This document shows positions 3,582-24,685 of a stretch of DNA of 64,000 nt, one piece after another (the stretch's first letter is position 1; every line of letters starts with the position of its first letter). Below the pieces are notes generated by a model, which had not been told where the DNA came from, made no database searches, and saw nothing but the letters and a program-made list of their open reading frames with translations. The position numbers and the translations under genes were made by a program. The stretch is from Fictibacillus nanhaiensis. Its GTDB lineage: Bacteria > Bacillota > Bacilli > Bacillales > Fictibacillaceae. Location: contig JAEACG010000001.1 of NCBI GenBank assembly GCA_016401345.1, positions 558,001 to 622,000 of the forward strand. The letters are read 5' to 3'.

Positions 3582-3947
3582 TTAGTTGAACGTACCTGCA
3601 GCAAGATCTCCGTCTTGTACACAAGTTACAGCTATGATGTCTTTACAGTTAACTAATAGATTACGAGTAGCTGTACCCGTTGCCGTCGTTACTTCATAAG
3701 AAAGCACAACACAGCACTTTGTGTGTTCCCAACGTACAAATCTGAACAACGTAGGATCTGTTGTTCCATTCAAGCTTAACGGTCCAATTCCTTTTAAGAC
3801 GATTACAAGGAAGTTGTTTAAGTTTTGGCTACAAAAATCAATGTCGTCGGATAGATCACGAAAGAAATCACATACACAGCTATCACAACCGCGTGTGTTA
3901 TCATGCTTTGTACATTTCTCTTTTCCGTGGAATAAAGAGTCACCCAT
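3582..3947 (-). CDS. CotY/CotZ-family Cys-rich spore coat (crust) protein, copy 1
   Basis: A small protein of 121 residues with nine cysteines. It has an N-terminal Cys cluster (C-D-S-C-V-C), a DFFRDL helix region, then FLVIVLKG...LFRFVRWEHTKCCVVLSYEV and a C-terminal NCKDIIAVTC. This layout matches CotY/CotZ, which self-assemble into disulfide-linked hexagonal sheets in the spore crust or exosporium basal layer. The start ATG at 3947 is chosen because GGGAGG lies 9 bases upstream; the ATG at 3968 sits before that RBS. It is transcribed divergently from the triple-repeat gene at 4193 and has a paralogue at 24305. Confidence 0.8.
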   Translation of the reverse strand: MGDSLFHGKEKCTKHDNTRGCDSCVCDFFRDLSDDIDFCSQNLNNFLVIVLKGIGPLSLNGTTDPTLFRFVRWEHTKCCVVLSYEVTTATGTATRNLLVNCKDIIAVTCVQDGDLAAGTFN

Positions 3948-4122
3948 CGTTACTGACCTCCCATCCATTTAAGAAATAAATCAATCTGTATACCAGATAC
4001 TAAATAGCATATTAATTTATTTCGAAAATGATAGGATACATGCCTATTAATCGATAAATATGTGTTTACCTATGATAAACGCAAGATAGAACACTACACA
4101 CTTTCTCACTTTATTAATAGAT

Positions 4123-4131
4123 TATAGTATG
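4123..4131 (-). promoter_or_regulatory. Possible sigma-K/sigma-E -10 element for CotY/Z-like copy 1
   Basis: CATACTATA on the minus strand fits CATANNNTA. No AC at the right distance was found, and the element is about 180 bases from the gene, so this is a weak call. Confidence 0.3.
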
Positions 4132-4192
4132 GAATCTTTATACTGGGCATCGTCTTGCTATAAAAGTTTGTTCCGGCAAGGAGGTGAATCAT

Positions 4193-4849
4193 ATGGCGAT
4201 CATCCAAAGCCGCACGCTAAGAAGCAGAATCATTCCTCTAGCTAGTGAAAATCTAGTAGATGTTTATATCACGGGGAATGCAGTAACCCCTTTTAATAGT
4301 GTTTCAATTAGAGAAGTTGGTGGTAATTTCATTCGCGTTTTCAACTTAGTTACTGGTATTAATGCATTAATCAATCTGTTTGAAATTGGAAGCATTGATA
4401 ATACACTAGGCGCGGGGGTAACTCCTGAAGTAAACAGTGCTGATTTTAGAGCTCGTGTAATTGATTTTGCAAGAGTATTCACTGTGGATATTTATGTTCC
4501 GGGTCTAGCAGCAGCATTTCTTACGAATGTGACAATAAGAGAGGTTGGATCGGATTATATTCGAGTGACAAATGCAACGGTTGATAGATATATTCCGTTC
4601 ACAACTATTGCTGCAGTAGATCAAAATTCTATATTAGTTACAACCAATACCCCGAATGTAACAAGTCGTACTATTCGTTCAGTCTTGATTACATTAGCTA
4701 ATGGAGATGTTATAGTAGATTTAATCGTAGCTGGTAGAGTGTTCAATGGCGTACAAATTGAAGAAGTACAATCAGATTACGCACGTATTAATAACGCAGC
4801 ACAAACAAAATTTCCACTCTTAGATATCGTATCTATTGATGTCTTGTAA
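4193..4849 (+). CDS. Protein of three tandem small beta-rich domains, spore-surface associated (unknown function)
   Basis: A protein of 218 residues made of three divergent copies of a domain of about 60-70 residues. Each copy has the pattern (S)R-x-R...VDVYI/VDIYV...V-x-I-R-E-V-x-x-(D/N)-(Y/F)-I-R-V...IP/F-x-x-I-x-x-ID. The same pattern occurs once in the gene at 23796. No signal peptide, cysteine or catalytic motif is seen. The alternating hydrophobic pattern suggests small barrel-like domains, but that is inference. ATG at 4193 follows AAGGAGG at 8 bases; the GTG at 4184 overlaps the RBS. It is divergent from a CotY/Z-like gene, which suggests a coat or crust role. Confidence 0.75.
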   Translation: MAIIQSRTLRSRIIPLASENLVDVYITGNAVTPFNSVSIREVGGNFIRVFNLVTGINALINLFEIGSIDNTLGAGVTPEVNSADFRARVIDFARVFTVDIYVPGLAAAFLTNVTIREVGSDYIRVTNATVDRYIPFTTIAAVDQNSILVTTNTPNVTSRTIRSVLITLANGDVIVDLIVAGRVFNGVQIEEVQSDYARINNAAQTKFPLLDIVSIDVL

Positions 4850-4864
4850 TTAATAAAAATAAAG

Positions 4865-4890
4865 AAACACGCCGAAATTATGGCGTGTTT
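4865..4890. terminator. Bidirectional terminator
   Basis: Stem AAACACGCC / GGCGTGTTT with T-tracts on both strands, between the convergent 4193 gene and yutG. Confidence 0.85.
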
Positions 4891-4902
4891 TTTGTGTAAT
4901 AC

Positions 4903-5460
4903 TTATCCTATCTTCTCTTCCTCATCACGTATTTTAATCTCTTCTACATCAAGACGCTCCTGCTTATCTCGGAGTCTGTGTGCGAGTCGGCTTGAAGCAT
5001 TAGCAGCAATGCTTGCAACAAGGTCATCCAAGAATGTATGCACTTTCCCATTTGCTATCTTCGTATCTAATTTTTGAATAATACCCATTTTAAATTTGTC
5101 TAGGTGACCAAAGGTTGTAACAGCTATGGATCCATATCCGAAAACGGCACCAAGAGCGATGGTTTCATCTACTCCAAACAATCCCTCATCTTGTTCAACG
5201 ATACTTTGAAGTGGTTCAGATAACTTTCTTTGTTCCGCTAGTATATCAAGTTCTACTCCGACTAGAATAGCATGCTGAATCTCGCGCTTCATGAGAACAG
5301 CATCGACGCTTTCTATACACTCTTCTTTCGTTAAGCCAGGTGAAAATGGGATCTGCATTTCATATACGATCTCAGCGATTTCAGGAATTGTGACGCCTCT
5401 TTCATTCAACAGCCTTCTAGCCGCTGCTTCAACTTCTCGACTGTGCACTCTATTATTCAA
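4903..5460 (-). CDS. yutG: Phosphatidylglycerophosphatase A-family protein (YutG)
   Basis: A protein of 185 residues. The core resembles the PgpA family as seen in B. subtilis YutG: PFSPGLTKEECIESVDAVLMKREIQHAILVG, then DEGLFGVDETIALGAVFGYGSIAVTTFGHLDK. PgpA members act on phosphatidylglycerol phosphate, but the Bacillus soluble members lack clear membrane segments, so the substrate is not certain. The start is TTG at 5460 with GAGGTG upstream. It points into the convergent terminator shared with the 4193 gene. Confidence 0.8.
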   Translation of the reverse strand: MNNRVHSREVEAAARRLLNERGVTIPEIAEIVYEMQIPFSPGLTKEECIESVDAVLMKREIQHAILVGVELDILAEQRKLSEPLQSIVEQDEGLFGVDETIALGAVFGYGSIAVTTFGHLDKFKMGIIQKLDTKIANGKVHTFLDDLVASIAANASSRLAHRLRDKQERLDVEEIKIRDEEEKIG

Positions 5461-5601
5461 CAGACTTCACCTCTTCTTAATGTTCGATCTCTTATGGCAA
5501 AACGATTTGATTCTTTCATTATATCATTATGTGATACAATAAAACGAGTTGAATGAAAACGCTTATAATTTAAAGATCAGTCAGCACAGGAGGTACTTTT
5601 T

Positions 5602-6333
5602 ATGGCCATACTTAAAGGTTCTATTACAGATGATAAAATATACAGCAACTACTTGGATGAGGAGATTGACTTGCTCATCTACCTGCCTTCTAAGTTTACT
5701 CCACTCGTTAAATACCCTATTCTAATCGCACAAGATGGCAGAGACTACTTTCAGTTAGGAAAGTTGGCGAAAACCGCCGATCTGCTAATGGAAGAAGAAA
5801 ATTTACAGAGCTGTATCATTGTTGGTGTAAATCATAAAGGAATCGAAGATCGAAAAGCAAAATATGACCCCACAGGAGAGAAGCACGAGAATTACATCCG
5901 ATTCATGGCTTTTGAACTTACCTCTTATCTTAATGAGAAGTTTAACACGCTCCAACTTGGTGCAGGCATGGGCTTAATCGGAGATTCTCTAGGTGGTTAC
6001 ATAGCATTTAAGCTGAGTATTCTGTATCCGAATACGTTCGGGAAAGTGATTGTACAATCTCCTTATGTTCCAGAGAGCCTTATTGAAACCGTTGAATCCA
6101 TAGAACATATGCAAACGTTAACCATCTACCACTCTATAGGTGATGAAGAAGAACAGTTTACGAATCCTGAAGGAATTACCAAAGATTTCTTAACTCCAAA
6201 CAGACAGCTGAGTAAGCTTTTAAACAATTTAGCTCTCGATTATGAATACGCTGAGTTTCAAGGAAATCATCTCTGGGTAAATTGGCAGAAAGACTTAATT
6301 CCCGCTTTAAGGTTTCTTTACAGCGACCAGTAA
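5602..6333 (+). CDS. yjcH: Alpha/beta-hydrolase (esterase D-like), YjcH
   Basis: A cytosolic protein of 243 residues in the putative esterase family. The nucleophile elbow is GDSLGG with Ser129, and the probable catalytic His lies in the C-terminal GNHLW. It begins an operon-like run yjcH-yjcG-yjcF, the same three genes that are neighbours in B. subtilis. ATG follows AGGAGG. The substrate is unknown; it resembles enterochelin-esterase-like enzymes in fold, but there are no siderophore genes nearby. Confidence 0.85.
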   Translation: MAILKGSITDDKIYSNYLDEEIDLLIYLPSKFTPLVKYPILIAQDGRDYFQLGKLAKTADLLMEEENLQSCIIVGVNHKGIEDRKAKYDPTGEKHENYIRFMAFELTSYLNEKFNTLQLGAGMGLIGDSLGGYIAFKLSILYPNTFGKVIVQSPYVPESLIETVESIEHMQTLTIYHSIGDEEEQFTNPEGITKDFLTPNRQLSKLLNNLALDYEYAEFQGNHLWVNWQKDLIPALRFLYSDQ

Positions 6334-6392
6334 CTGTGGGAAATAAATAGAATATTTGGTATACTAGTTTAAAATATGAGGGAGGAAGAAAT

Positions 6393-6908: not shown

Positions 6909-6913
6909 TTAGA

Positions 6914-7348: not shown

Positions 7349-7366
7349 CGATTTCAATGCTTTTTT
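7325..7366 (+). terminator. Perfect 42-nt palindromic terminator overlapping the yjcF stop codon
   Basis: AAAAAAGCATTG... is followed by its exact reverse complement with no unpaired loop base, centred between 7345 and 7346. The right arm ends in TTTTTT. It includes the codons for ALKSS and the stop. Confidence 0.88.
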
Positions 7367-7430
7367 GTTTATTACGATCTAATCTCGTCAAAACTGTACA
7401 ATAAAACGTACGTTGAGGAGACTAAGGTTG

Positions 7431-9012: not shown

Positions 9013-9056
9013 TATAAAACCTCCAAGTCATATGTTATGAACAAAAAAAGAAACCA

Positions 9057-9284: not shown

Positions 9285-9412
9285 CGATATCCTCTCCTTT
9301 ATCATTACTTCTATATTTCTTACCCTATTCCTTCTAATTCTATGTTTTCTAAGTGTAATACTAAAAAAAAGAGCACTCTGTTGAGAGTACTCTAAAGAAA
9401 CATTTGGATTGC

Positions 9413-9772
9413 TTACACCCAAGGATCATAGTGGCAGCTATTGCTTGAGCTTGAGCTGGAAATTGAGCTTGAGCTAGAAGAAGATTCATGTTTTGAAGAA
9501 GATTCATGCTTTGAGCTAGATTCATGTTTATGACTAGATTCATGTTTATGACTAGATTCATGTTTATGACTAGATTCATGTTTAGAAGATGACTCATGTT
9601 TGTGGCTAGACTCATGTTTATGACTAGACTCCCATTTGCTAGAGCTTGATTCGCACTCTACCTTCTTTTCATGAATAATAACTTTATCTGCTTTAATGAT
9701 TACTTTATCAGCATAAACCTTCTTATGTTTTTTATGCTTCTTCTTCCTTTTACAATAATAACAATCTTCCAT
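9413..9772 (-). CDS. CotG-like low-complexity spore coat protein with ESSHKH repeats
   Basis: A protein of 119 residues. It has an N-terminal Lys/His-rich segment with a C-Y-Y-C motif, two copies of the phrase (Y)ADKVII, then eight tandem hexapeptides ES-S-(H/S)-KH (residues 48-95), a poly-Ser tail, and the end CHYDPWV. The repeat style resembles CotG/CotB-type outer coat proteins, whose Ser-rich repeats are phosphorylated by CotH kinase; no cotH gene is in this window. ATG follows AGGAGG at 9772. An imperfect sigma-K promoter is seen upstream. Direct homology to CotG is not shown. Confidence 0.8.
   Translation of the reverse strand: MEDCYYCKRKKKHKKHKKVYADKVIIKADKVIIHEKKVECESSSSKWESSHKHESSHKHESSSKHESSHKHESSHKHESSHKHESSSKHESSSKHESSSSSSSISSSSSSNSCHYDPWV
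9488..9631 (-). repeat. Eight tandem 18-bp coding repeats
   Basis: The DNA encoding ES-S-(H/S)-KH is repeated eight times. Three neighbouring units are identical at DNA level (ATTCATGTTTATGACTAG on the plus strand), which implies recent slippage and possible length variation between strains. Confidence 0.9.
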
Positions 9773-9794
9773 GTTACAACCTCCTCGTATAGTA

Positions 9795-9821: not shown

Positions 9822-9835
9822 TATAGGCTGTCTCA

Positions 9836-10726: not shown

Positions 10727-10760
10727 GCATCTTCCCCCTTGCATAATTAGGCTCTTTCCC

Positions 10761-10843: not shown

Positions 10844-10861
10844 GTTCTTCAGATCCATTAA

Positions 10862-11980
10862 TTATTGGTGTTGAAGGCAGTTTTCTATAGCGATTTCTCC
10901 AGAATCTGCTTTTACAACACCTGTAGTAAATACTTTAGTTCCTGCTCTGTCAATAAGTTCTACCTCAAATTGATTTCCATGCTCTGTCTCAACAATAGCC
11001 AGGTTAAACTGATACTGTTCTCCTGAAGCGTCCATTATTCCTCTTCCTGAAACAGTCAATCTTAGTCCACCAGCATACTCATCACAGCTAAGTGTTTCTT
11101 GTGTGAATTCTGTAGCTGTATATCCTGTATCGTTTAGAGATAATTGGAATCTGCTTCCTGACAGGTTGTAATTCGGACAGATTTCAACGGATATCGTTGC
11201 CCTGCCAGTTTCTGTTGCTCCATCCTCTTCACACGTTAATCCGCTAGCAGTTCCTCGTGATCTACACAGGCAGCCTGGCCTGGGATATATGTCCGGGCAT
11301 TGTTGTGGGAACACTACCTCTGGACACATTTCTCCCTCGCTTTCCTCTGCATTTAGGTCATTTTCACGAGGCGAGCAGAACTTCGCCAATACCTCTAATT
11401 TAACTTCTGCTTCAACTTGGATATCAACGCAGAATGTAATGTCTACAACGAATGAAGTTGGTGATGGACTATTCAACAACACAGTCCCTGTTGGGATTCG
11501 AGCAAAGATTTTAGTGATTCGGCAGTATAAGTCTGTTCCATCTGGATAACACAAGACGAAAGATTCAAATACTGATGCATTAACCAACTGTTCTACAACG
11601 ATTACTCCGTTACGGTCTACAACTTGAACTTTGATATCTGTTGTAAAGAGTAGCTCTACAAGCTGTGCTTCAGCAAAACCTCCGTTAAGCGCTACTGTAA
11701 CATCTCTCTTATCTCCAACTTGCTCGCATAGATATAGTTCAGGGCATGCTGCCGCTTCAGTTGTTTCACCTGTTAGCGGGAATGCTGGAGGAGTTTTAGG
11801 TACTTTCGTAACCAATCTTAACGGTCGGCGTGAAGGATCATCCAATGCTTCTTCTATAGCTGCGATTTGTTCAGGAGTAAAAGAAACGGTCTTTCTTACG
11901 TTTAGTGTATCAGTCACCCAGTCGTAAACTTTCTGAACGCGGATACACTCATCCTGCAAGTGTTTATGATTATTTCCCAT
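10862..11980 (-). CDS. Large beta-rich, Cys-containing spore coat protein (tentatively BMQ_0737-type morphogenetic coat protein)
   Basis: A protein of 372 residues from ATG 11980 (GGAAGGG upstream). The N-terminus ECIRVQKVYDWVTDTL is a pattern I associate with Bacillus spore coat proteins. Two beta-rich parts follow: about 70-220, including a SPOCS-like run VVDITFCVDIQVEAEVKL, and about 255-372, separated by a Cys/Pro-rich hinge (CPEVVFPQQCPDIYPRPGCLCR). About 15 cysteines suggest disulfide cross-linking. The upstream region has a CATA-like box but no convincing promoter. The family name is from memory and should be treated as tentative; a coat or exosporium location is better supported by context. 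Confidence 0.65.
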   Translation of the reverse strand: MGNNHKHLQDECIRVQKVYDWVTDTLNVRKTVSFTPEQIAAIEEALDDPSRRPLRLVTKVPKTPPAFPLTGETTEAAACPELYLCEQVGDKRDVTVALNGGFAEAQLVELLFTTDIKVQVVDRNGVIVVEQLVNASVFESFVLCYPDGTDLYCRITKIFARIPTGTVLLNSPSPTSFVVDITFCVDIQVEAEVKLEVLAKFCSPRENDLNAEESEGEMCPEVVFPQQCPDIYPRPGCLCRSRGTASGLTCEEDGATETGRATISVEICPNYNLSGSRFQLSLNDTGYTATEFTQETLSCDEYAGGLRLTVSGRGIMDASGEQYQFNLAIVETEHGNQFEVELIDRAGTKVFTTGVVKADSGEIAIENCLQHQ

Positions 11981-12100
11981 TGTTTCCCTTCCTTTCCTCA
12001 TCATGATCTGAAGATTCCATACATACTATGGAAATAGAGTGGGTTATGACACAAGAACGAAAGCCTATTTTTATAGATAAGCGTTAAGGAGGAAGCTATC

Positions 12101-13310: not shown

Positions 13311-13916
13311 TTAAGAAATATATTGATTTTCCTCCAAATATTTTATGATTTGTTCGGCACATTCTTTTACTTCCAGGTGATCTGTTTTTACAGTAATTTC
13401 AGGAGAAACTGGTGCTTCATACGGATCAGAGATACCCGTAAAATTAGTAATCAATCCTTCTCTTACCTTCTTATATAGCCCTTTTGGATCTCGTTTCTCA
13501 CATTCTATAAGACTGCAATCTATATAGACTTCAACAAATTCTTCTCTTGACAACAAACTTCTAACAGCATCTCGATCTGCAGCAATAGGAGAAATAGCTG
13601 CAACTAAAACAATCGATCCGCCTTCTACAAATAACTTTGTAACTTCTCCGACTCTTCTGATGTTTTCTGTTCTTGCTTCTTTTGAGAAAGTTAGATCTCG
13701 ATTTAATCCGTGTCTTACATTATCTCCATCAAGCAACATGGTACTGTACTGTCTTTGGTATAACATTTTCTCAACTTCGGAAGCTATCGTTGATTTTCCA
13801 GAACCCGATAGACCTGTAAACCAAAGCACAAAGCTCTTATGACCATGAAGTTTCTGTCTCATTTCCTTGGTCACATTATGCTGTTGCCATGTTATATTCT
13901 TATCTTCTTGACTCAA
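13311..13916 (-). CDS. cysC: Adenylyl-sulfate kinase (APS kinase)
   Basis: A protein of 201 residues with the P-loop GLSGSGKST and the APS kinase motifs DGDNVRHGLNRDL, FSKEARTENIRRVGEV and DPKGLYKKV. It phosphorylates APS to PAPS with ATP. I prefer TTG at 13916 (MSQEDKNITW) because GGAGG lies 8 bases ahead; the ATG at 13931 sits too close to its only RBS-like bases. It lies just after sat on the same strand, so the two enzymes convert sulfate to PAPS. There is no cysH reductase or sulfate permease beside it. Confidence 0.93.
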   Translation of the reverse strand: MSQEDKNITWQQHNVTKEMRQKLHGHKSFVLWFTGLSGSGKSTIASEVEKMLYQRQYSTMLLDGDNVRHGLNRDLTFSKEARTENIRRVGEVTKLFVEGGSIVLVAAISPIAADRDAVRSLLSREEFVEVYIDCSLIECEKRDPKGLYKKVREGLITNFTGISDPYEAPVSPEITVKTDHLEVKECAEQIIKYLEENQYIS

Positions 13917-13937
13917 ATCTTTAGCCTCCATACCTTT

Positions 13938-15068
13938 TTATTTAGCATAATAATCGCGTAATATTGAAATGACTTCACTCCTGCTAAAATTAGTTGGAAT
14001 CGGCTCGTTATTTTTTAGCATTTCTCTTACTTTCGTTCCTGATAAAGTAAGTCTGTCCATTTCGTCATGTGGACACGTTTTAATCGTGGCCATAGCTCCA
14101 CATTTCGTGCAATAAAAACTATTCTCGAAGAAGATAGGTGTAATTCCTATCTCCTCCAGATCAAACTCTGCAAAAATATGCTGCGCATCATAAGGACCAT
14201 AAAAATTTCCGACACCAGCATGATCTCTTCCTATTATAATGTGGCTGCATCCATAATTCTTTCTTATGATGGAATGAAAGATCGCCTCACGTGGACCCGC
14301 ATATCTCATCGATCCAGGAAACGCACTCAACAGGACACGATTTTTCGGGTAATAATGTTGGAGAAGCGTTTCATAAGACTCCATCCTAACTTCTGCAGGT
14401 ATGTCATCCTGTTTTGTCTCCCCTACTAAAGGATGTAATAAGAGCCCGTCCATCTGTTCAAGTGCTGTTTTTTGTAAATATTCGTGTGCACGATGAATGG
14501 GATTTCTCGTTTGGAAACCAACGATCTTTTCCCAACCATTCTTATTAAATTGTTCCCTTGTCTCTTTAGGATCTAAATAATAAGATGAACCAACTTTTCG
14601 AGGAGGTTTGTTCACCAAAGTAACTCTTCCCCCTACGTAGCAGCTTCCTCTATTCATCACATTGCGTACCCCTGGATGCGTTTGATCCTCTGTACGATAG
14701 ACATGCCTCACTTCTAGAAGTTTGTCAGGTTTGAAGATATCTGTGATTTCTATTTTTCCATATATCGTATTTTCATATTTCAGTAAAGCTTCATGTTGTT
14801 TTTTTAATTGTTTAGCATTGTCTTCAGTAACAGGTAACGTTATTGGAACACTCCAAGGAAGTCCGTTAGTTAGCCTCATATGACGTACTACAGCTTCGTA
14901 TTCCGCTTTGTTCATAAAAGAATCAAGAGGACTAAATGCACCGTTAGCAAGACATTCTAAATCAGATAAACTGATTGGATCTAATTCAATTTTAATTAGG
15001 TTTTGATTGTAATCGACGTTAGTAAACTGTCGATTGACTAAACTTCCACCATGAGGAAGAAGGAGCAT
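13938..15068 (-). CDS. sat: Sulfate adenylyltransferase (ATP sulfurylase)
   Basis: A monofunctional Sat of 376 residues. It contains the ATP-binding motif [12 protein letters not shown], the GRDHAGVG motif, and a C-x-x-C...C cluster ([13 protein letters not shown]) known in many bacterial Sats. It makes APS from sulfate and ATP. ATG at 15068 follows TTGAGGTG; the in-frame GTG at 15077 overlaps the RBS. A sporulation-type promoter lies 47 bases upstream, so the sat-cysC pair may serve the mother cell rather than cysteine synthesis. B. subtilis also has two sat/cysC sets (ylnB/C and yitA/yisZ). Confidence 0.93.
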
Positions 15069-15114
15069 CGATTTCACCTCAACTATTCATTCATTAGCCA
15101 TTGCTAATCATTAC

Positions 15115-16806: not shown

Positions 16807-17676
16807 TTACCTGATTGATCTGTAAAATGTAAGAGTTTGCTGTATCGAAATTTCTAATGGGTATTTTTTCTGCCAAAGGAGTTCTTGTAAGAGTTTTGAA
16901 TCCATGACATTGGGACTTTTTTCTGGAGAAGCGGCTGTCTCTAACAAAGTCAGTTTTTCTTTCGTAAACGTTTGAAAGATATCAGCTATCTCTAACAGTG
17001 TTGTCATCTTTCCTGATCCTATTTCGTAGGTCTTATTATGATGGCCTTTCTTCAACAGAACTTCATAAGCAGATATCGCATCTCTTACATCTAAGAACTC
17101 TCGCTTGTTTCCAAGATGACTGATATTAATAGCACTTACATCACCCGTATTCTCCCTGTGGATAATACGCTTTGCTAAAAAAGAAACGAAACCAGGTGAT
17201 GTGCCTGGTCCGATTAAATTACATGGTTTTGCTACCATAACTTGAAGATCAAACAGATGCGTCCAGTCCATCACTAGGTTTTGTTGAAGCTGTTTACTCA
17301 CTCCATACGGATGATCCTTTCCCGAAAGTGCTGAGGTAACAATTACTGTTCGGCACGATGGGACTGATGAACGAATAGCTTCAAGTAAATAAAGTGTTCC
17401 TAGAACATTTGCTTCAATCGTCGAGATCGGGTCTTCCCATGAATGAGGTACAGAATTCACACCTGCCAAATGAAGGCAGAAGTTAGGTTTATGCTTGTTT
17501 AGGATTTCCGAAATACTTGCTTTGTTTAAAAGATCACATGTTTCTGCATGCACCTTCGAAATAGAAAAGGAACTTCTTGAAATGCCTATTACTTCATATC
17601 CTTTATCCACAAAGTACTGACAGGCATGAAGCCCTGTAAATCCAGTTGCACCTGTTATTACGATCTTTTTTTTCAT
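16807..17676 (-). CDS. NAD(P)-dependent sugar epimerase/reductase (extended SDR)
   Basis: A protein of 289 residues with the cofactor motif GATGFTGLHA near the N-terminus and the SDR pair Y-G-V-S-K preceded by TSALSG. Overall similarity in my reading is to GDP-4-keto-6-deoxymannose reductase and related 4-keto-sugar reductases. It is the last gene of a four-gene operon; ATG at 17676 overlaps the previous stop (ATGA), so the two are coupled. It may finish a 6-deoxy-hexosamine or make a second sugar. The exact substrate cannot be read from the sequence. Confidence 0.82.
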   Translation of the reverse strand: MKKKIVITGATGFTGLHACQYFVDKGYEVIGISRSSFSISKVHAETCDLLNKASISEILNKHKPNFCLHLAGVNSVPHSWEDPISTIEANVLGTLYLLEAIRSSVPSCRTVIVTSALSGKDHPYGVSKQLQQNLVMDWTHLFDLQVMVAKPCNLIGPGTSPGFVSFLAKRIIHRENTGDVSAINISHLGNKREFLDVRDAISAYEVLLKKGHHNKTYEIGSGKMTTLLEIADIFQTFTKEKLTLLETAASPEKSPNVMDSKLLQELLWQKKYPLEISIQQTLTFYRSIR

Positions 17677-18488
17677 TTTAACCAATCTTTTAAATCTTGT
17701 ACCTGTTTTTCATAAGATGCGACCTTAAATGTTGAATCTGTCCTTGTGTTAAAGAGTGTTCGATCTAATCGTGGCTCGGTATGCGGGATAATATCAACAT
17801 CACCCTTCTGATAGATATCCTTGATAATCTTTAAAAGTTCATACTTTGAAAGAACTTCTGGAGCGGTTAAATGATAAAGACCTGATATTGGATTAGTCGT
17901 GGTATGATCAATAAATTTAGCAAGTTCTAATGTTGTAACACCGTTCCATTTCACATGAGTAAAACCTTTAATGATTCCCTTTTGCTGAATAAACCAATTA
18001 AAAAGGCCGATACCATTTTTTAACTCGGGACCAATAATAGATGTTCGAATCGTTAGATGAGGTTCTGTTTTTATTTCTCCAAGCTGTTTAGTTTTAGCAT
18101 ACATCGATAATCCATCTGGTACCGATTCTTCATTGTAATTACCTTGATGTCCACTAAACACGCAATCTGTACTAATGTGGATCAACTTGCCTCCATACCC
18201 ATTGAGTTGTTTAGCTAATTCGTGTGGAAGTAAGCTGTTTACAAGGATTGCGTCTCTTTGATGGATGGCAGCATATTCGTTTAATAGACCGATGCCATTA
18301 ATAATAAGATCTGGTTTATAATGCTGAACAACTTCTGCAATCTGCGTTAAATTCGTTGCATCCAGCAGGATATGGCCCTCCGTTCCATCTCTAGAAGTCA
18401 GAAGGAGCTCATGTGTTGTCTTTGTTTTGAAATAGGAGGCGATCATATGACCAGCCATCCCATTCGCCCCTAAAATCATGATCTTCAA
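17673..18488 (-). CDS. RmlD-like nucleotide-sugar 4-keto reductase
   Basis: A protein of 271 residues with GANGMAGHM (cofactor), ISTDCVFSG and the catalytic Y-A-K-T-K. It belongs to the RmlD branch, like WbvR, which reduces UDP-4-keto-6-deoxy-L-HexNAc to the L-rhamno form on the way to UDP-L-QuiNAc. It lacks the C-terminal cupin domain of CapF (about 370 residues), which argues for the QuiNAc-type rather than FucNAc-type route. The start TTG overlaps the stop of the dehydratase gene by four bases. Confidence 0.83.
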   Translation of the reverse strand: MKIMILGANGMAGHMIASYFKTKTTHELLLTSRDGTEGHILLDATNLTQIAEVVQHYKPDLIINGIGLLNEYAAIHQRDAILVNSLLPHELAKQLNGYGGKLIHISTDCVFSGHQGNYNEESVPDGLSMYAKTKQLGEIKTEPHLTIRTSIIGPELKNGIGLFNWFIQQKGIIKGFTHVKWNGVTTLELAKFIDHTTTNPISGLYHLTAPEVLSKYELLKIIKDIYQKGDVDIIPHTEPRLDRTLFNTRTDSTFKVASYEKQVQDLKDWLK

Positions 18489-19471
18489 GACAGAAATCCA
18501 CCTTCAACGAGCATCTGATGAATCTCTTTTTTCGTCATTAAATCCGTCTCAGAACTATAGCTTTCAAGCTCTACTTTATCGAAAGATGCATAGTGTTCAT
18601 TCAATCCGTCTATATCAATAGTAGGTAGAATTACAAAGTATTCATTATCAAAAAGGACTGTCGTTGTACTTTCATATTCAGATAATAGGATTTCATGAAG
18701 CTTCTCTCCTGGACGTTTTCCAAGTTCGATCATCTTTACCCCTTTTTCTCCTGAAGCATCAATAAGAACTTGTGCTAGATCTGTAATCTTGCACGTAGGC
18801 ATCTTCATAACAAAGATCTCACCACCTACACTTTCATAAGTGGCTTTAAATAATAGACTGATTGCTTCTTCTAAGGTTAAGAAGAAACGTGTCATTTCAA
18901 AGTCAGTAATGCCCACTTGTCCTTTGTTCTTGATCTGACTTTTAAACACGTGAATAACACTACCATTTGTGCCTAAAACATTACCGCCTCTTACGCAGAC
19001 AAATCGTGTATGCTTACTTAATAGGTTTGCATGAATGATTAACTTTTCACCGATCGCTTTCGTCATTCCGTAAAGATTAGAAGGGTTCGCTGCTTTGTCA
19101 GTTGAAATATAGATCACTTTCGTCACCTTATGATGAATGGCTGTTTCGATTACGTTTTGTGTTCCTTGAATATTGCTTTTCAATGCTTCATAAGGTTGGA
19201 GCTCACAGATGGGTACATGCTTTAATGCTGCAAGATGATAGATATAATCGATGCCTTCGCTCGCTCTCATTAAGGAATCTTTATCTCTGATATCACCAAT
19301 CATAAAGGTAAGCTTGGGATTATAATCAAACTGTCTTTGCATAGCTACTTGACTTGCTTCATTACGCGAGAGAACGATTATTTCTTTCGGTTCTTTTGGC
19401 AGAAGCTGTTTGACTAGCTCATGACCCCAAGATCCCGTGCCCCCCGTAATTAAAATTCTTTTATTAAACAA
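18485..19471 (-). CDS. UDP-GlcNAc 4,6-dehydratase/5-epimerase (CapE/WbjB-like)
   Basis: A protein of 328 residues with the cofactor motif TGGTGSWGHE, the active-site run STDKAANPSNLYGMTKAIGEK, and a downstream MTRFFLT segment. These are typical of the CapE/FlaA1 soluble dehydratases that turn UDP-GlcNAc into a 4-keto-6-deoxy-L-sugar. It overlaps the 2-epimerase gene by 8 bases (TTG start, GGAGG upstream). First committed step of the local amino-sugar pathway. Sequence alone does not tell inverting from retaining enzyme with certainty. Confidence 0.87.
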   Translation of the reverse strand: MFNKRILITGGTGSWGHELVKQLLPKEPKEIIVLSRNEASQVAMQRQFDYNPKLTFMIGDIRDKDSLMRASEGIDYIYHLAALKHVPICELQPYEALKSNIQGTQNVIETAIHHKVTKVIYISTDKAANPSNLYGMTKAIGEKLIIHANLLSKHTRFVCVRGGNVLGTNGSVIHVFKSQIKNKGQVGITDFEMTRFFLTLEEAISLLFKATYESVGGEIFVMKMPTCKITDLAQVLIDASGEKGVKMIELGKRPGEKLHEILLSEYESTTTVLFDNEYFVILPTIDIDGLNEHYASFDKVELESYSSETDLMTKKEIHQMLVEGGFLS

Positions 19472-20555
19472 TACTATTTCCTCCTAAAATAAACTTTACG
19501 ACTCGATCTGAAACATCTAAATCTCCATAGCCTTCGGGAATGGACCATTGCTTCTTCTGATTTGTCATTACTTTTACTGAAGCTAAAATTTGTGTGGCTG
19601 AAACACCTGATACACAATTGCTGCCACACTCAACGGTTTCTGGCCGTTCGGTACTATTTCTCATCGTTACAGTCGGCACTTGGAATAAACAACATTCCTC
19701 TTGAACGGTCCCACTATCTGTTAGTGCACAAAATGCGTGCTTTTCTAACTTTACAAAGTCAAAGAATCCAAATGGTTCATGAAATTGTACGAATGGGTTC
19801 ATCTGTACCGTGCTGCTTTCTAGAATCCTTGATTTTGTGCGTGGGTGGATAGAGCAGATAATCGGCATTTTAAAATGTTCTGCAACTAAATTTAAACCTG
19901 TTAAAATCTCTTTTAAATGAACGTGATTGTCCACGTTCTCAGCACGATGGGCTGTGACTAACATATACTTTCCTTTTGAAACATTTAATTTTTCTAGAAT
20001 TCTGCTATTATCAATCTGTTCTGCAAATTGAGTTAACACTTCATAGATCGGGTTACCTGAAACCATGATTCGGTTAACAGGGACACCTTCTCTAATTAAG
20101 TTCTCTCTGCTGTATTTGGTATACGGCAGATTAAAGGTAGAGATGGCGTCGATTACTTTTCTGTTTTTCTCTTCTGGTACATTTAGGTCAAAACATCGGT
20201 TACCCGCTTCCATATGAACGACTGGTATGTTCAACCTTTCTGTTACGATAGAAGAAAGAGCACTATTCGTGTCACCAAGAACCAAAACTTTATCAGGTTT
20301 CTCATGTAACAATATTTTCTCTAGCTCTGAAAACAGATGTGCAATTTGATTTCCGAAAGAAAATTGTTGTTTCATTAAAATATAGTCTGGCTTTCTAAGT
20401 TGAAACTCTTGGAAAAACACGTCATTTAATGAAGGTGTGAAGTTTTGACCTGTGTGAATCAAAACATGTTGATCTGCTAATTGATCTAGTTTTTTGATGA
20501 TCAAACTTAGTCGTATGATCTCAGGACGTGTTCCAAGAATAGTTACTATTTTCAA
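19464..20555 (-). CDS. UDP-N-acetyl-amino-sugar 2-epimerase (WecB/CapG/WbvD-like)
   Basis: A protein of 363 residues of the non-hydrolysing UDP-GlcNAc 2-epimerase family: GTRPEIIRL at the N-terminus, VLGDTNSALSS, HMEAGNRCFD, TAHRAENVDN and LTDSGTVQEECC. It opens a four-gene operon with overlapping or closely spaced genes. With a CapE-like dehydratase and an RmlD-like reductase, it fits the last step to UDP-L-QuiNAc (or UDP-L-FucNAc). The TTG start follows AAGGAGAG. A CATANNNTA element lies 40 bases upstream. Confidence 0.88.
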   Translation of the reverse strand: MKIVTILGTRPEIIRLSLIIKKLDQLADQHVLIHTGQNFTPSLNDVFFQEFQLRKPDYILMKQQFSFGNQIAHLFSELEKILLHEKPDKVLVLGDTNSALSSIVTERLNIPVVHMEAGNRCFDLNVPEEKNRKVIDAISTFNLPYTKYSRENLIREGVPVNRIMVSGNPIYEVLTQFAEQIDNSRILEKLNVSKGKYMLVTAHRAENVDNHVHLKEILTGLNLVAEHFKMPIICSIHPRTKSRILESSTVQMNPFVQFHEPFGFFDFVKLEKHAFCALTDSGTVQEECCLFQVPTVTMRNSTERPETVECGSNCVSGVSATQILASVKVMTNQKKQWSIPEGYGDLDVSDRVVKFILGGNSIV

Positions 20556-20594
20556 TGAAACTCTCCTTCCATAATTAAAATTAAAACTTTATAT

Positions 20595-20603
20595 TAAACT
20601 ATG
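20595..20603 (-). promoter_or_regulatory. Sporulation-type -10 element of the amino-sugar operon
   Basis: CATAGTTTA on the minus strand fits CATANNNTA (sigma-K or sigma-E). An AC occurs 14 bases upstream, slightly close for sigma-K. Confidence 0.45.
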
Positions 20604-20696
20604 ATTGTATTCCCAATGTGGACTAGACCCCTACCCTGTACAAACAAAAAAGGCACCCCTTCAGAGTGAGTGTTTAGAACATCTTTTCTATGAATT

Positions 20697-20704
20697 CATA
20701 CAAT
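20697..20704 (+). promoter_or_regulatory. Sigma-E-like -10 element of GT4 gene
   Basis: CATACAAT, an exact match to the sigma-E -10 consensus CATACAnT, 30 bases before the GT4 start. The -35 region is poor. Confidence 0.35.
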
Positions 20705-20733
20705 GGCTTATAGAATTTAAAAGGAGCTACTGT

Positions 20734-21792
20734 ATGATCACAGCTAAAATATTGTTTGTTTTTTATTTACCTAGCGGCGGCATGGAAACATTGAACCGTC
20801 AACGCTGTAAAGCCCTTAAGAACCACGGCATCGACTGTCATCTTCTCTACCTTCAGAATGGTACAGGCATGCAAAACATTTCTGAGATTACTACTTATAT
20901 CACAAATAATGATGAAGAGATTAAAAGAATAATAATGGATGATTTTGATGCCATCTTCGTTTGCTCAGACATTAACTTACTTCACCGTATAAGAAAGCTT
21001 GGGTTTACAGGTAAACTTATATATGAGGTGCAAGGGTTAGGTAGTTACCAAAACGCTGAAAAAATTTTGCTTCAGGCAAAGCCGAACGTGGAAACATATT
21101 CTAACGGAATCCTTTTTCCTAATACACCTCATCTAATCAACTTGATTCAAGCCTACTATCCTTCCACACCTAAATATTGCTTTCATAATTGTTTTGATAA
21201 AGATGAATTTTGTTATGTTTCAATGGAAAAACCGAGCTTTCCGATCGTTGGCTGGGTTGGGAGAATTGAAGAGAATAAAAATTGGAAAGATTATTTAGAG
21301 TTTTCCTTTCGCTTCTTAAAGCATAGACCTGACACTCAATTTTGGATGTTCATAGACGATACACTAGGCGATCAAAAGGAGCGAATGAAGTTTAATAGAC
21401 TGGTGACTCAGATGGGGTTAAGCACTTCATTAAAGCTGCATGCGAACATCCCTCATAAACAGATGGCCAACTACTTTTCCATGATCGGGGATTCTGGAGG
21501 ATTCTTATTATCGACTTCTATAGTAGAAGGATTCGGGTACGCAGTCATTGAGGCGATGAGCTGCAGATGCCCTGTTCTCTCTTCTGATTCAGATGGTGTA
21601 AAAGCATTCATCGCTCATAATCAAACTGGTAAATTTTACACGAATGCTAGAATTGAAACGGCTGTTCCGGAAGCATTAGAACTGGTTAACAATGTGGTGT
21701 TACGTTCTAGTATTATAGATCAAGCATACAATCACTTAGATGTATTTAACCTGGATACGTATGCCCAAGAATTTATGAATATTTTAAAATAA
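20734..21792 (+). CDS. Family 4-type glycosyltransferase
   Basis: A GT-B protein of 352 residues. The C-terminal domain contains VGWVGRIEENKNW and the E-x7-E signature (VEGFGYAVIEAMSCRCPVLS). The N-terminal domain has a G-G-M-E-T motif typical of the acceptor-side loop. Retaining GT4 enzymes transfer sugar from UDP/GDP donors. ATG at 20734 follows AAAGGAG; an upstream in-frame extension has no RBS. It is divergent from the amino-sugar operon, so both may be switched on together in the mother cell. Confidence 0.87.
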   Translation: MITAKILFVFYLPSGGMETLNRQRCKALKNHGIDCHLLYLQNGTGMQNISEITTYITNNDEEIKRIIMDDFDAIFVCSDINLLHRIRKLGFTGKLIYEVQGLGSYQNAEKILLQAKPNVETYSNGILFPNTPHLINLIQAYYPSTPKYCFHNCFDKDEFCYVSMEKPSFPIVGWVGRIEENKNWKDYLEFSFRFLKHRPDTQFWMFIDDTLGDQKERMKFNRLVTQMGLSTSLKLHANIPHKQMANYFSMIGDSGGFLLSTSIVEGFGYAVIEAMSCRCPVLSSDSDGVKAFIAHNQTGKFYTNARIETAVPEALELVNNVVLRSSIIDQAYNHLDVFNLDTYAQEFMNILK

Positions 21793-21819
21793 AATACAGA
21801 TATCCTAAGTTTGTTCACA

Positions 21820-21846
21820 AAAAAAGCTCCTAAAGAGGGCTTTTTT
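21820..21846. terminator. Bidirectional terminator
   Basis: AAAAAAGC...GCTTTTTT hairpin between the convergent GT4 and GT2 genes; the right arm touches the GT2 stop codon. Confidence 0.7.
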
Positions 21847-22564
21847 ATGTGCCTTTAATTCGTTTAACGATCTGTTGAGTCATCATTCTTTTATATCTTT
21901 TAGAGACAAGCTTAACTTCTTTTCCTATCGACGGTTTACGTACCTGTGAACCCATTTCACTGTGCACGCGATAATGGGTTAACGGCTGATTGTAGTGAAA
22001 AAATAGGATGTCCGAACAGATCACTCGTAACCAATAATCATAATCTTGCGTACTCGGAAGCTCTTCATCAAAGTATCCTATTTGCTGAATGAGTTTTTTA
22101 TCCATCATAACTGTACATCCATTGATCACACAGCTTCTTCTCATCACTTTTAGAAATGCCAAATAATCAGTGTTATCGAAACCGAGTGTTGAACTTGTAA
22201 GAACATTATCCTCATTCATAAGTCTGAAGTTCGTACTGCTGATCAGCGCGCCTACTTCTTTCATAAATGCAATCTGACGTTCTACTTTGTATGGAAGAAA
22301 CATGTCATCTGAACTTAACCAACATATAAAGTCACCACTTGCAGCTTTTATGCCGGCATTTAATGCACTTGCAGTTCCACCATTTGGTTTTGAGAGGATC
22401 GTAACCTGATCTCTAAAAGCGTCTAATTTCTCGTTATGTTGAAACGATCCATCATTTACGACAATAATTTCAATATGTTTGTACGTTTGATTCAACGCAC
22501 TTTGTATAGCGTGTGTGACATAAGTACAGTTGTAAAATGGGATAATAATAGATACTTTATCCAT
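21845..22564 (-). CDS. Family 2 glycosyltransferase
   Basis: A GT-A protein of 239 residues. It has VSIIIPFYN at the start, VVNDGS, KPNGGTASALNAGI and the metal-binding SSDDMF, plus the acceptor-side QDYDYWLRV. It is short, with no membrane segment. ATG at 22564 comes directly after the stop of the CgeB-like gene, with AAAGGAAAC as RBS, so the two are co-translated. It likely works on the same glycan as its partner. Confidence 0.87.
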   Translation of the reverse strand: MDKVSIIIPFYNCTYVTHAIQSALNQTYKHIEIIVVNDGSFQHNEKLDAFRDQVTILSKPNGGTASALNAGIKAASGDFICWLSSDDMFLPYKVERQIAFMKEVGALISSTNFRLMNEDNVLTSSTLGFDNTDYLAFLKVMRRSCVINGCTVMMDKKLIQQIGYFDEELPSTQDYDYWLRVICSDILFFHYNQPLTHYRVHSEMGSQVRKPSIGKEVKLVSKRYKRMMTQQIVKRIKGT

Positions 22565-23497
22565 TCAAAGTTTCCTTTCAATAATTGTTTGTATTTTGTG
22601 TATCATTTCAAGAGCTCTTTTGCTTGAGATATGTCTCTCGTGAACCATCTTATATCCTTGTCTAGCGATAACATTCCGTTCTATTTCGTTAGCAAGGTAA
22701 TAAGTGATCTTTTCTTTATAATTATTGAGATCAATTTGTACGAAAGTTTGACCATCAATAAATCCAAGTTCATATAATTCTGGTGAACCTGGAGCTAGCA
22801 ACAATGTTTTTGAGGCTAATACTTCGAAATACTTCAAAAGTGGATAATGATAGATCGAATCACATGTAATAAATATCTTGGCAGCATTTATTTCTTTTGC
22901 ATATTCTGCGCCTGAGATAATTTCTTTCTCATGCGCTTTTATATCACGGTATCCAGGATGCTTGAAGGTTTTAAAACCACTAAAAGTTTTCATCTCTTGC
23001 ATGATCTTGGCTCTAAGAGGATAAAGATGCGGATAGTTTGCACCTACCATTAAAACGTCTGTTTCTTTTGTAATCTGGTAATCTTTGAAAACATTTTCGT
23101 TCACATGATGAGGGAACCAATGTACCTTATCTGATAGTGAAGGAAAAGTTTGGATAAAAGCTTCTTTATAATGAGGAAATAAAACTTTAATACAACTTAA
23201 TTTCATAATCCTCTCACGTAATTTTGGGTTGTAATGCAAATCGTGAACGATCATCCCAGATGGTACGTTCAATGTCTCGAGTCCATTTATAAAAGGACTA
23301 TAGTTTTTGTGAATATCATTAAATAATATGAAATCAGGTTTCCTTTGAACACGTGAAAGAATATATTGAATAGAAGCATGTTCGCTCCACACTTCAACAT
23401 TCACATGTTTTTGAAGTTCTTGGTATAAATAATGACTTGATTTATCAATAAATTGGCTAGTGTTTTTTGATATAAAGAGTATATTTAACTTGCTCAT
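22565..23497 (-). CDS. CgeB-like glycosyltransferase (spore maturation/crust glycosylation)
   Basis: A GT-B protein of 310 residues. The C-terminal part (SIYHYPLLKYFEVLASKTLLLAPGSPELYELGF) is the pattern of the CgeB-type glycosyltransferase 1 family. In B. subtilis CgeB helps build the polysaccharide on the outermost spore layer. The N-terminal half has VNVEVWSEHAS and HDLHYNPKLRERI. The start follows AAAGGG. It sits just downstream of two small beta-domain genes after a hairpin, on the same strand. Confidence 0.8.
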   Translation of the reverse strand: MSKLNILFISKNTSQFIDKSSHYLYQELQKHVNVEVWSEHASIQYILSRVQRKPDFILFNDIHKNYSPFINGLETLNVPSGMIVHDLHYNPKLRERIMKLSCIKVLFPHYKEAFIQTFPSLSDKVHWFPHHVNENVFKDYQITKETDVLMVGANYPHLYPLRAKIMQEMKTFSGFKTFKHPGYRDIKAHEKEIISGAEYAKEINAAKIFITCDSIYHYPLLKYFEVLASKTLLLAPGSPELYELGFIDGQTFVQIDLNNYKEKITYYLANEIERNVIARQGYKMVHERHISSKRALEMIHKIQTIIERKL

Positions 23498-23524
23498 CTA
23501 TTAACCCTTTCTAAATAAATTGAA

Positions 23525-23550
23525 AAGACTTCATGTAAACATGAAGTCTT
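23525..23550 (-). terminator. Hairpin between beta-domain gene and cgeB-like gene
   Basis: A perfect 11-bp stem AAGACTTCATG / CATGAAGTCTT with loop TAAA. On the minus strand only a moderate T-rich tract follows, so read-through into the CgeB-like gene is possible. Confidence 0.7.
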
Positions 23551-23557
23551 CGTTGAA

Positions 23558-23767
23558 TTAAATTTCGATACCAAGAATATCGTTAAGACGAATATAATAA
23601 ACAGATCCGGCACCTGAACCCGCACCTGCAAAAATCACAAAATTTTCTTGTACAGATACGACAGTTACTCCAAAAAGGTTTGTCTCTTCACATGATGTAA
23701 ACACTTGTGTGATAACTGTATTCTGTCCCTGCATGTTTCTTAACATGCTTCTAAATAATAATCCCAC
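23558..23767 (-). CDS. Small single beta-domain protein (69 aa), spore-surface associated
   Basis: GTG start at 23767 after AAAGGAG. The core ITQVFTSCEETNLFGVTVVSVQENFVIFAG...YYIRLNDILGIEI has the strand pattern of small Sm/DUF2642-like domains in Bacillus. It follows a related single-domain gene by 28 bases, so the two are an operon. Function unknown. Confidence 0.7.
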   Translation of the reverse strand: MGLLFRSMLRNMQGQNTVITQVFTSCEETNLFGVTVVSVQENFVIFAGAGSGAGSVYYIRLNDILGIEI

Positions 23768-23795
23768 TATTCCAACTCCTTTCTTATTTTCTAAA

Positions 23796-24029
23796 TTAGA
23801 TTACTGCTGTGTCTTGGATTGTGATAATCTTGTCAATTGGTACAAGGTAATTTGTAGTACCATCATTAACGATAATAAAATCTGCTTGTACTTCAGTAAT
23901 TGTAACTGCCTCTAAAGCAGGAGCAGCCACAACTTGTGTTGATGGTACATAAATAACATCAATATTTGTAGCCAATCTTGCATTTTGAATTAATCTCGCT
24001 CTTAAGTTTTGTGTTCCAAAAATCGCCAT
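23796..24029 (-). CDS. Single-copy version of the beta-rich domain (77 aa)
   Basis: A protein of 77 residues, ATG after GGGAGAAAG. It reads NLRARLIQNARLATNIDVIYVPS...VTITEVQADFIIVNDG...VPIDKIITI, which aligns by eye with each of the three repeats in the 4193 gene. It is divergent from the CotY/Z-like gene at 24305, the same layout as the left-hand module. No enzymatic residues. Probably a structural coat component. Confidence 0.75.
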   Translation of the reverse strand: MAIFGTQNLRARLIQNARLATNIDVIYVPSTQVVAAPALEAVTITEVQADFIIVNDGTTNYLVPIDKIITIQDTAVI

Positions 24030-24235
24030 ATAAATCTTTCTCCCTTCAGGAATAAAACAAGCTAGCTAAAATTTGTACTAGCTTTATATATAGATATGAA
24101 AAATTACAACTTGTGCATAGATGAATCGACTAGTAAATGAGCGGAAATTTAAGAAGTTTAGAAGAAAGGGCTAAAACCTATTTATAGAAGATTGGGCATT
24201 AACTAGGTACATGTCTCATGCAAATAATAGCCTCC

Positions 24236-24254
24236 GTTAATATAGTATATTAAC
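24236..24254. promoter_or_regulatory. 19-bp perfect palindrome upstream of CotY/Z-like copy 2
   Basis: GTTAATATA-G-TATATTAAC, a 9+1+9 inverted repeat with symmetric arms, 50 bases before the CotY/Z-like start. It looks like a dimer operator or overlaps the promoter. No known factor assigned. Confidence 0.45.
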
Positions 24255-24304
24255 CCTGATGAAACGTTCAGGTACATGTATCTAATCTATAAGGAGGCAA
24301 TTTA

Positions 24305-24685
24305 ATGTCTAGCCTATTTAAAGGATCTTGCTGTGGCGGAAATGGAGAAGCTGCAGGTGGATCACGGTCAAGAAACAAGTCTTGTGTATGTGAGTTGTTA
24401 AACAACATCGCAAACACAAACGGTAATTTCTGCAGCATGGCTGCTCAGCAAAGACTTCTAATCGTATTGAAAGGTGCTTCTACACCTCTTTCTCTTGGTG
24501 GAGAAACTACACCTACTATCTTTACATTAGTTCGTTTTGACGACGACAGCAGCTGTGCAGTATTCTCTTACTTGGATGCAACGACTGGTTTAAACCAAAC
24601 GTTTGTAATCGACTGTCGCTGCATTTGTGGTATCGTATGCGTACCACAAACTACTAACGGAAACGGCGCAGGAGCTCTAGGTTAA
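24305..24685 (+). CDS. CotY/CotZ-family Cys-rich spore coat (crust) protein, copy 2
   Basis: A protein of 126 residues with ten cysteines. It has an N-terminal CCGG, C-V-C-E-L-L, FCSMAAQQRLLIVLKG, FTLVRFDDDSSCAVFSYLDA, and the C-terminal DCRCICGIVCV. The same order of motifs as in copy 1 (3582), but distant sequence. CotY/Z proteins form the paracrystalline crust or exosporium base layer by disulfide cross-linking. ATG follows AAGGAGG. Two strong hairpins end the transcript. It lies next to fabI as cotZ does in B. subtilis. Confidence 0.85.
   Translation: MSSLFKGSCCGGNGEAAGGSRSRNKSCVCELLNNIANTNGNFCSMAAQQRLLIVLKGASTPLSLGGETTPTIFTLVRFDDDSSCAVFSYLDATTGLNQTFVIDCRCICGIVCVPQTTNGNGAGALG

Follow-up and report, generated by a model that had tools for sequence, protein, structure and literature searches.

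The described systems closest to the locus analysed here are the CotY, CotZ and ExsY proteins of spore-surface lattices (PF10612) and the cgeAB-cgeCDE locus of Bacillus subtilis. CotY is described as forming hexameric rings and two-dimensional (2D) crystals or crystalline sheets (PMC4950064, PMC12630357), CgeA as the glycoprotein with which the assembly of spore polysaccharide begins (PMC11708026), and the lattice protein as having no crystal structure as of 2022 (PMC9562818). Here we describe a 64,000-nucleotide stretch of the Fictibacillus nanhaiensis genome (contig JAEACG010000001.1, positions 558,001 to 622,000; hereafter the window) in which two short, cysteine-rich CotZ-like genes, CZ1 and CZ2, each lie divergent from genes for a small strand-rich domain, here called the beta domain. 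The module is real and conserved, and we regard it as a variant of the cge type with an unannotated CotZ-like family. We lean towards reading its second copy in the window, module 2 (22565-24685), as a cge-type spore-surface glycan-anchoring module, in which CZ2 would be the lattice acceptor, an adjoining CgeB-type glycosyltransferase the enzyme and a CgeC-like beta protein the adaptor.

Two divergent modules in the window

An earlier note, made from the letters of the window alone, had described two mirrored divergent pairs of CotZ-like and beta genes, and all five genes were found where it placed them. In module 1, CZ1 (3582-3968, minus strand; an open reading frame of 128 residues with 9 cysteines) faces B3 (4193-4849, plus strand; 218 residues) across an intergenic region at 3969-4192. 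B3 comprises three tandem CgeC-like beta domains and starts at an ATG at 4193 with an AAGGAGG-type site in front. In module 2, CZ2 (24305-24685, plus strand; 126 residues, 10 cysteines), which adjoins fabI, is divergent across 24030-24304 from two single-domain genes, B1a (23796-24029, minus strand; 77 residues) and B1b (23558-23767, minus strand; 69 residues). B1b lies directly upstream of the third gene of the module, which encodes the CgeB-type glycosyltransferase (22565-23497, minus strand; 310 residues; PF13524, E = 6e-15).

Pairwise sequence z-scores within the window, from 300 shuffles per pair, were 24 for CZ1 against CZ2 and 9-14 among the B3 repeats. B1a scored 6-12 against the three repeats, bearing out the proposal that the gene at 23796 shares their domain, and the caution with which the earlier note had treated the gene at 23558 was apt, as B1b reached no significance against the other four beta domains alone (z -0.6 to 2.5). 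Intermediates in alignment A3, taken from further Fictibacillus genomes, tie B1b to the family, although B1b was among the rows of A3 when it was scored. Neither CZ1 nor CZ2 matched a Pfam or NCBIfam family at E ≤ 1, and none of the five module genes had a match over cut-off in these collections; the leads were DUF2642 and the NCBI CgeC model, both weak.

The modules are mirrored in their divergent pairing. They are not equal copies: module 2, with its glycosyltransferase, is the widely conserved form, and no glycosyltransferase stands beside the CZ1/B3 pair. In a panel of 60 genomes (34 from the family of F. nanhaiensis, whose own genome is included, and 26 from other families), the three-domain B3 was present in four (G000, G003, G004, G015), with the same divergent arrangement in the three other genomes of those four. 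Module 1 is best read as an accessory pair, limited to its lineage, in which the beta gene has grown to three domains. That it is a simple recent copy of module 2 was considered and found unsupported: in a tree, CZ1 groups with T1, the first gene of a tandem pair described below (85/88, on long branches), and B3 groups only weakly with B1a (21/97).

Recurrence of the pair and of its glycosyltransferase

The A3 profile, built from 17 beta domains, was searched in 397 genomes of the order at E ≤ 0.001 and matched in 34. In 29 of these, from five families, a CotY/Z gene lies upstream of and divergent from the beta gene (22 of the short and seven of the canonical type), with 249-3875 base pairs (bp) between the two matches. 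As the A3 seeds were partly chosen for an adjoining CotZ-like gene and eight of the 34 genomes gave seeds, this count is partly circular; the non-seed genomes alone show the divergent pair in 21 of 26. Beta genes regularly lacking a CotY/Z partner, which the earlier note had named as a counter-case, did not appear. Among the five genomes without a divergent CotY/Z match, G316 (Tuberibacillus) has only beta and transferase genes, and G157 has, at the CotY/Z position, a divergent gene (L259:7038-7466) in which most conserved cysteines are replaced, as judged by eye, possibly a parallel to the cysteine-free CgeA. The A3 matches in G283, G115 and G245, still counted among the 34, are other proteins away from the module.

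A second sample of 72 named loci was drawn by the transferase; transferase counts in it are biased, and it shares genomes with the beta-drawn stretches described below, so that the two are not independent. In it, 28 loci hold 29 beta genes, of which 25 have a divergent CotY/Z gene within 4 kilobases (kb; 20 short, five canonical). The remaining beta genes are the two of L241 (F. gelatini), which have no CotY/Z gene, and those of L250 and L259. The converse is looser: of 48 genomes with a short CotZ-like match, 22 also match beta. In the 60-genome panel a beta match remained in ten genomes, each with a divergent CotZ-like match, once a match in G052 that by eye is mostly antisense to a membrane-protein gene had been dropped.

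Unrelated spore-surface genes gathered in a late-sporulation region might recur side by side through neighbourhood alone, without direct functional contact, and the region does hold other spore genes (CotD-like, BMQ_0737) and a glycan cluster. Yet the neighbours of the pair differ: fabI in Fictibacillus (matched in 20 of the 72 related loci), a GalU-like gene, identified by eye, in G053, and no fabI match in L289. Moreover, the pair recurs with canonical CotY/Z genes in other families, and the layout of the cge locus is similar. We therefore hold a mere neighbourhood effect to be very improbable.

The glycosyltransferase recurs with the pair. Twenty-seven stretches (L112-L138) were fetched around beta matches, and hence were not selected for the transferase; in 24 of them it lies on the same strand directly downstream of the beta gene, with a gap of up to 432 bp, and the three stretches without it belong to G283, G115 and G245. 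In the transferase-drawn sample it stands within 300 bp behind 26 of the 29 beta genes, at an operon-like spacing of 22-170 bp. The transferase family (A7) is well conserved, with a mean column identity of 58% among 22 members.

Does the beta protein serve the lattice or its glycosylation? Strong pairing with CotY/Z genes, both short and canonical, would be expected if the beta protein were a structural part of the CotZ-like lattice, as co-subunit or linker, with the glycosyltransferase a mere neighbour. Module 1, which has the pair without the transferase, fits such a role, as does L289 (Pullulanibacillus), in which the pair is intact and the transferase lies beyond the CotZ-like gene, about 1.4 kb off, and tandem triplication of the beta domain would suit a ring-forming part. 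The lack of sequence relation between beta and CotZ-like proteins is neutral in this respect. A co-subunit role is at odds, however, with the position of the transferase right behind beta in the 24 beta-drawn stretches and with the existence of loci where CotZ-like and transferase genes occur without beta; we consider it unlikely, though not negligible. The idea of the earlier note that beta proteins are functional partners of the CotZ-like protein is upheld as far as the pairing goes. They are not a new class of partner, being relatives of CgeC, and the PF13524 glycosyltransferase had been overlooked.

Relation to CotY/Z and cge proteins

With hhalign, the canonical CotY/Z and short CotZ-like families aligned at a probability of 92-95% in a first alignment, unmatched by any of 150 column shuffles, and at 94-96% in a second, unmatched by any of 100; shuffles reached at most 5.3%. 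Shared with CotY, CotZ and ExsY are an N-terminal CxC[DE], a central CCA-type and a C-terminal DC-type motif. Because the two families align over this conserved cysteine frame, the short proteins are, on sequence comparison, remote CotY/Z homologues, as the earlier note had supposed of the two cysteine-rich genes, which PF10612 does not recognise. PF10612 gave no match over its curated cut-off in the F. nanhaiensis genome, reached one of the 25 members of a wider CotZ-like alignment, A4 (E 0.0012), and at E ≤ 0.001 matched in 0 of the 34 panel genomes of the window's family versus 12 of the 26 from other families.

A short CotZ-like match was found in 27 of the 60 panel genomes, one of which (G034) is a weak match to canonical CotZ. 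The F. nanhaiensis genome has five: CZ1, CZ2, a tandem gene pair on the same contig (L009:6316-7020) that has no adjoining beta match, and the C-terminus of a giant protein. This protein, of about 3450 residues (L008:7601-17950, contig C24), contains 28 carboxypeptidase-regulatory-like (CarboxypepD_reg) stretches and a cysteine-poor CotZ-like domain at its end. The domain is terminal in the giant proteins at all three loci where the end was read (L008, L234, L315), and frames of more than 2700 residues with a CotZ-like match occur in 12 of the 60 genomes, those outside F. nanhaiensis being 2700-3500 residues long. Elsewhere the CotZ-like domain is N-terminal to beta-propeller repeats (L311:2632-3834, L313:1284-2426, L316:1354-2475) or to a proprotein-convertase P-domain (L312:2255-2980), and it starts a 252-residue protein of L314 that matches no Pfam family over cut-off. 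In Clostridium aceticum, according to a preprint, F-Anchor-3 carries a CsxA-like domain in a long surface protein and is proposed to be an anchor (PMC11952670). Because of the fusions and the CsxA precedent, the CotZ-like domain suggests itself as a docking module.

The beta domains were compared as a family profile, rather than repeat by repeat as the earlier note had proposed, and this returned CgeC. The beta and CgeC profiles aligned at 95.7-96.0% over 63-64 columns, with none of 150 shuffles as good, and at 88-91% (0 of 80 shuffles) without an intermediate row from genome G265; the narrower A3 alignment gave 14-33% without that row. The NCBI CgeC model (NF041485, cut-off 110 bits) scored B3 at 17.4 bits (E = 0.0035, on repeat 3), far below its cut-off. 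At E ≤ 0.001 it matched 15 of the 397 genomes, eight of which, all from one genus, passed the cut-off, and among 14 controls B. subtilis was the sole match. Below the cut-off, at 21-26 bits, it matched the beta genes of G316 (1.9e-5), G357 (1.4e-4) and G298 (8.2e-4), and there was a further weak match in G413 (stretch L330). Conversely, the beta profile A9 finds the CgeC proteins of L325 (8e-5) and L329 (7.5e-7). Homology of the beta domain to CgeC is thus well supported at the level of sequence profiles.

Two other placements were tried and not adopted. DUF2642 (PF10842) matched three of 17 beta members with a best E of 0.0065, and beta and CotZ-like domains did not form one sequence family (hhalign 0.1%, 22 of 60 shuffles as good).

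Seven further stretches were fetched. In four of them, all from the B. subtilis group (L325, L326, L327, L331), cgeC is intact and divergent from a frame of 133-155 residues, which is followed by a transferase-sized gene; in L325, the one stretch scanned, this gene is PF13524 plus DUF3880. L328 is laid out alike, except that its cgeC frame is broken. In these stretches, cgeA and cgeB are named by position and size, as given in a protein list (PMC8005191). A minimal form is found in L329 (G265), where a 70-residue CgeC-like gene is divergent from a 78-residue CgeA-like gene and a CgeB-like gene.

The core of CgeA, in alignments built from six genomes, was compared with A13, an alignment of short CotZ-like proteins, and matched it over 58 columns at 88.5%, as against 0.2% when reversed and a maximum of 18.9% in 150 shuffles. 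With the G265 row left out, the full CgeA alignment reached 58-66% (0 of 80 shuffles). No detectable relation to the beta profile was found for the CgeA core (hhalign 4.6%). The CgeA core is thus a probable homologue of the short CotZ-like domain, as a cysteine-free form of it, with the profile match as the ground. Thr112 of CgeA has reportedly been identified as the glycan attachment site by Nakaya et al. in 2023. The CgeA-type hairpin has a Thr at residue 112 in all three 133-residue sequences, and Thr-rich hairpins are also present in CZ2 (DATTGLNQT) and CZ1 (VTTATGTAT).

On these grounds we envisage the following for module 2. CZ2, a short CotY/CotZ-type structural protein, would most likely enter a disulfide-linked surface lattice via its cysteines, and its Thr-containing hairpin, between the third and fourth strands, would be the glycan acceptor. 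The CgeB-type transferase would start or extend the glycan, which the neighbouring sugar-nucleotide and transferase genes (16807-22564) would make. The beta protein, predicted to be a small Hfq/Sm-like barrel, would most likely act as an adaptor between the lattice and the glycosylation machinery, which is the least supported step. The analysis shows the homologies, with the CgeA link as probable, the gene arrangement and its conservation, and the folds as predictions; lattice membership and the acceptor and adaptor roles are what we infer.

The operon-like spacing of beta and transferase genes would also suit a beta protein that is itself the glycan acceptor, modified by the downstream transferase and carried by the CotZ-like lattice; in one genome of the B. 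subtilis group, too, a PF13524 transferase comes directly after the cgeA-type gene. Since the homology of beta is to CgeC, with none detected to CgeA, and loci that lack beta retain the transferase, we judge acceptance by beta distinctly unlikely.

Several observations weigh against a glycan-anchoring module with CZ2 as acceptor. The CgeA link varies with the alignments chosen: without the G265 row the core falls to 68-74% against A13 (0 of 80 shuffles), it reaches 72% against the wider A4 alignment and only 8-20% there without that row, and it gives 0.2% against canonical CotY/Z. For the CgeC proteins of L326, L327 and L331, the beta profile A9 gives no better than E 0.36-0.79. The transferase stands behind cgeA in B. 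subtilis and behind the beta gene here, and of the CgeB proteins A7 finds at 1e-3 only that of L329 (6e-5), missing those of L325-L328 and L331; because of this difference in gene order and these missed proteins, the window transferase is no more than a possible orthologue of CgeB. Several short CotZ-like hairpins of the Pseudalkalibacillus type contain neither Thr nor Ser. Module 1 has no transferase, and CotZ-like and transferase genes occur without beta at L246, L257, L266 and L270, as well as in G048, with the two genes too close together for a beta gene to fit. We read these five cases as pointing to glycosylation.

A scan for sigma-K-type promoters also gave no clear outcome. It covered 22 divergent regions, namely 20 of the 25 paired loci and the two of the window, with the long-gap loci L244, L245, L261, L280 and L285 excluded; the sequences are related, and the shuffles preserve only single-base content. 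Towards the CotZ-like gene, CATAnnnTA was found in ten regions (expected 3.7, maximum of 300 shuffled sets 9) and the full sigma-K-type motif in one (expected 0.7). Towards the beta gene, the corresponding counts were six (expected 3.5) and four (expected 0.6, highest shuffled 3).

Predicted folds, glycan genes and comparison with known systems

AlphaFold2 models were consistent with small barrels. B1a was predicted as a helix plus five strands (mean predicted local distance difference test, pLDDT, 71), and in the model of CZ2 (pLDDT 74, with blocks of 85-93 over residues 51-110) an N-terminus of low confidence is followed by a helix, which begins at the CxC motif, and five strands. In Foldseek, B1a matched Hfq first (probability 1.00, best E 0.012), and 40 of the 50 matches listed were Hfq, with query template modelling (TM) scores of 0.51-0.71; the others listed were designed SH3-like barrels and retroviral integrase chains. 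CZ2 matched an Sm-like Gemin6/Gemin7 chain first (probability 1.00, E 0.014, TM 0.37 on the query and 0.54 on the target), and its further matches were mixed, mostly ribosomal, SH3 and lectin chains. Because no Foldseek match of either protein fell below E 0.001, a common Sm-like fold of beta and CotZ-like domains is put forward only as a lead. The CotZ-like core is predicted less surely than beta to be Hfq/Sm-like. Sequence searches of solved structures with CZ2 and with the profiles A5, A8 and A9 gave matches at chance level only (best E 0.062), and no lattice-protein structure was found among them.

There is also a wider conjecture, one that we would more readily doubt than defend: the CotY/CotZ/ExsY lattice proteins, CgeA and the CgeC-type partner might all be Hfq/Sm-like barrels, and the hexagonal lattice of crust and exosporium a 2D extension of an Sm ring. 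CgeA might then be a cysteine-free lattice glycan acceptor, the CgeC-like protein a second ring-former, with the three domains of B3 making up half a ring of six parts, and the CotZ-like domain might serve generally as a docking tag that brings giant repeat and propeller proteins to the spore. As it stands, the module offers a testable fold for the lattice protein.

The glycan genes extend from the module as a cluster, and four of them were searched by tblastn at 1e-8 in the 72 loci, where some matches are distant family members. The CgeB-type enzyme is followed by a glycosyltransferase of family 2 (GT2; 21845-22564, minus strand; PF00535), matched in 38 loci, the weakest at about 30% identity. 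Next come a family 4 enzyme (GT4; 20605-21792, plus strand; PF00534; 27 loci), a UDP-GlcNAc 2-epimerase of the WecB family (19464-20555, minus strand; TIGR00236 above cut-off; 32 loci) and a PseB/FnlA-type UDP-GlcNAc 4,6-dehydratase (18485-19471, minus strand; TIGR03589 at E = 2e-95 and TIGR04130 at E = 3e-70, each short of its cut-off; 37 loci). An RmlD-type reductase (17673-18488, minus strand; PF04321, with TIGR01214 below cut-off) and an NAD-dependent epimerase/dehydratase (16807-17685, minus strand; PF01370) follow.

Among the spore-coat and glycan genes of the window, adenylylsulfate (APS) kinase and sulfate adenylyltransferase genes lie at 13311-15077. In L259, the CotZ-like gene adjoins a sulfotransferase gene (PF00685; L259:6108-6902), which has tblastn matches in 17 of the 72 loci, itself included. 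To judge by these genes, spore-surface glycans may be sulfated. The transferase family also occurs in Clostridia-type records (Syntrophomonas, Oceanirhabdus and others; L262, L264, L271, L281, L291, L303, L308), in whose fetched stretches, some of them short, no CotY/Z or beta match was found. Likely spore-coat genes elsewhere in the window encode CotD-like (1355-1795; PF11122), by eye His/Ser-rich repeat (9413-9772), BMQ_0737-family morphogenetic (10862-12004; NF052457) and YppG-like (58009-58311; PF14179) proteins.

The analysis names an unannotated short CotZ-like family, fusions included, that the Pfam CotZ model misses. The module joins in one recurring arrangement the CotY/Z lattice, the CgeA glycan anchor and CgeC, which have been treated separately; in the open-access papers searched, no statement linking the CotZ-like/beta module to CgeA and CgeC was found. 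The arrangement bears on the way in which the protein shell of the spore holds its polysaccharide and on the role of CgeC, and it offers a candidate glycan-acceptor hairpin.

Four known systems invite comparison. F-Anchor-3 is a long surface protein with a domain that resembles a lattice protein, comparable to the CotZ-like end of the giant proteins, although the lattice protein and the appendage domains are different ones. Hfq and other Sm small barrels share the predicted helix and five strands of B1a and CZ2; the likeness covers the predicted fold only, with no claim of RNA binding, and there is no sequence match to solved structures (best E 1.6 and 0.45). Canonical CotY, CotZ and ExsY genes hold the same position in the module in several families, and the window proteins are shorter, at 126-128 residues. 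The cgeAB-cgeCDE locus of B. subtilis shares with module 2 a divergent arrangement of cgeC, the beta homologue, and cgeA, whose core is probably a CotZ-like homologue, with PF13524 and GT2-type transferases alongside. It differs in that the structural partner in the window is cysteine-rich, that the PF13524 enzyme stands behind the CgeC-like rather than the CgeA-like gene, and that the window holds two modules with five beta domains.

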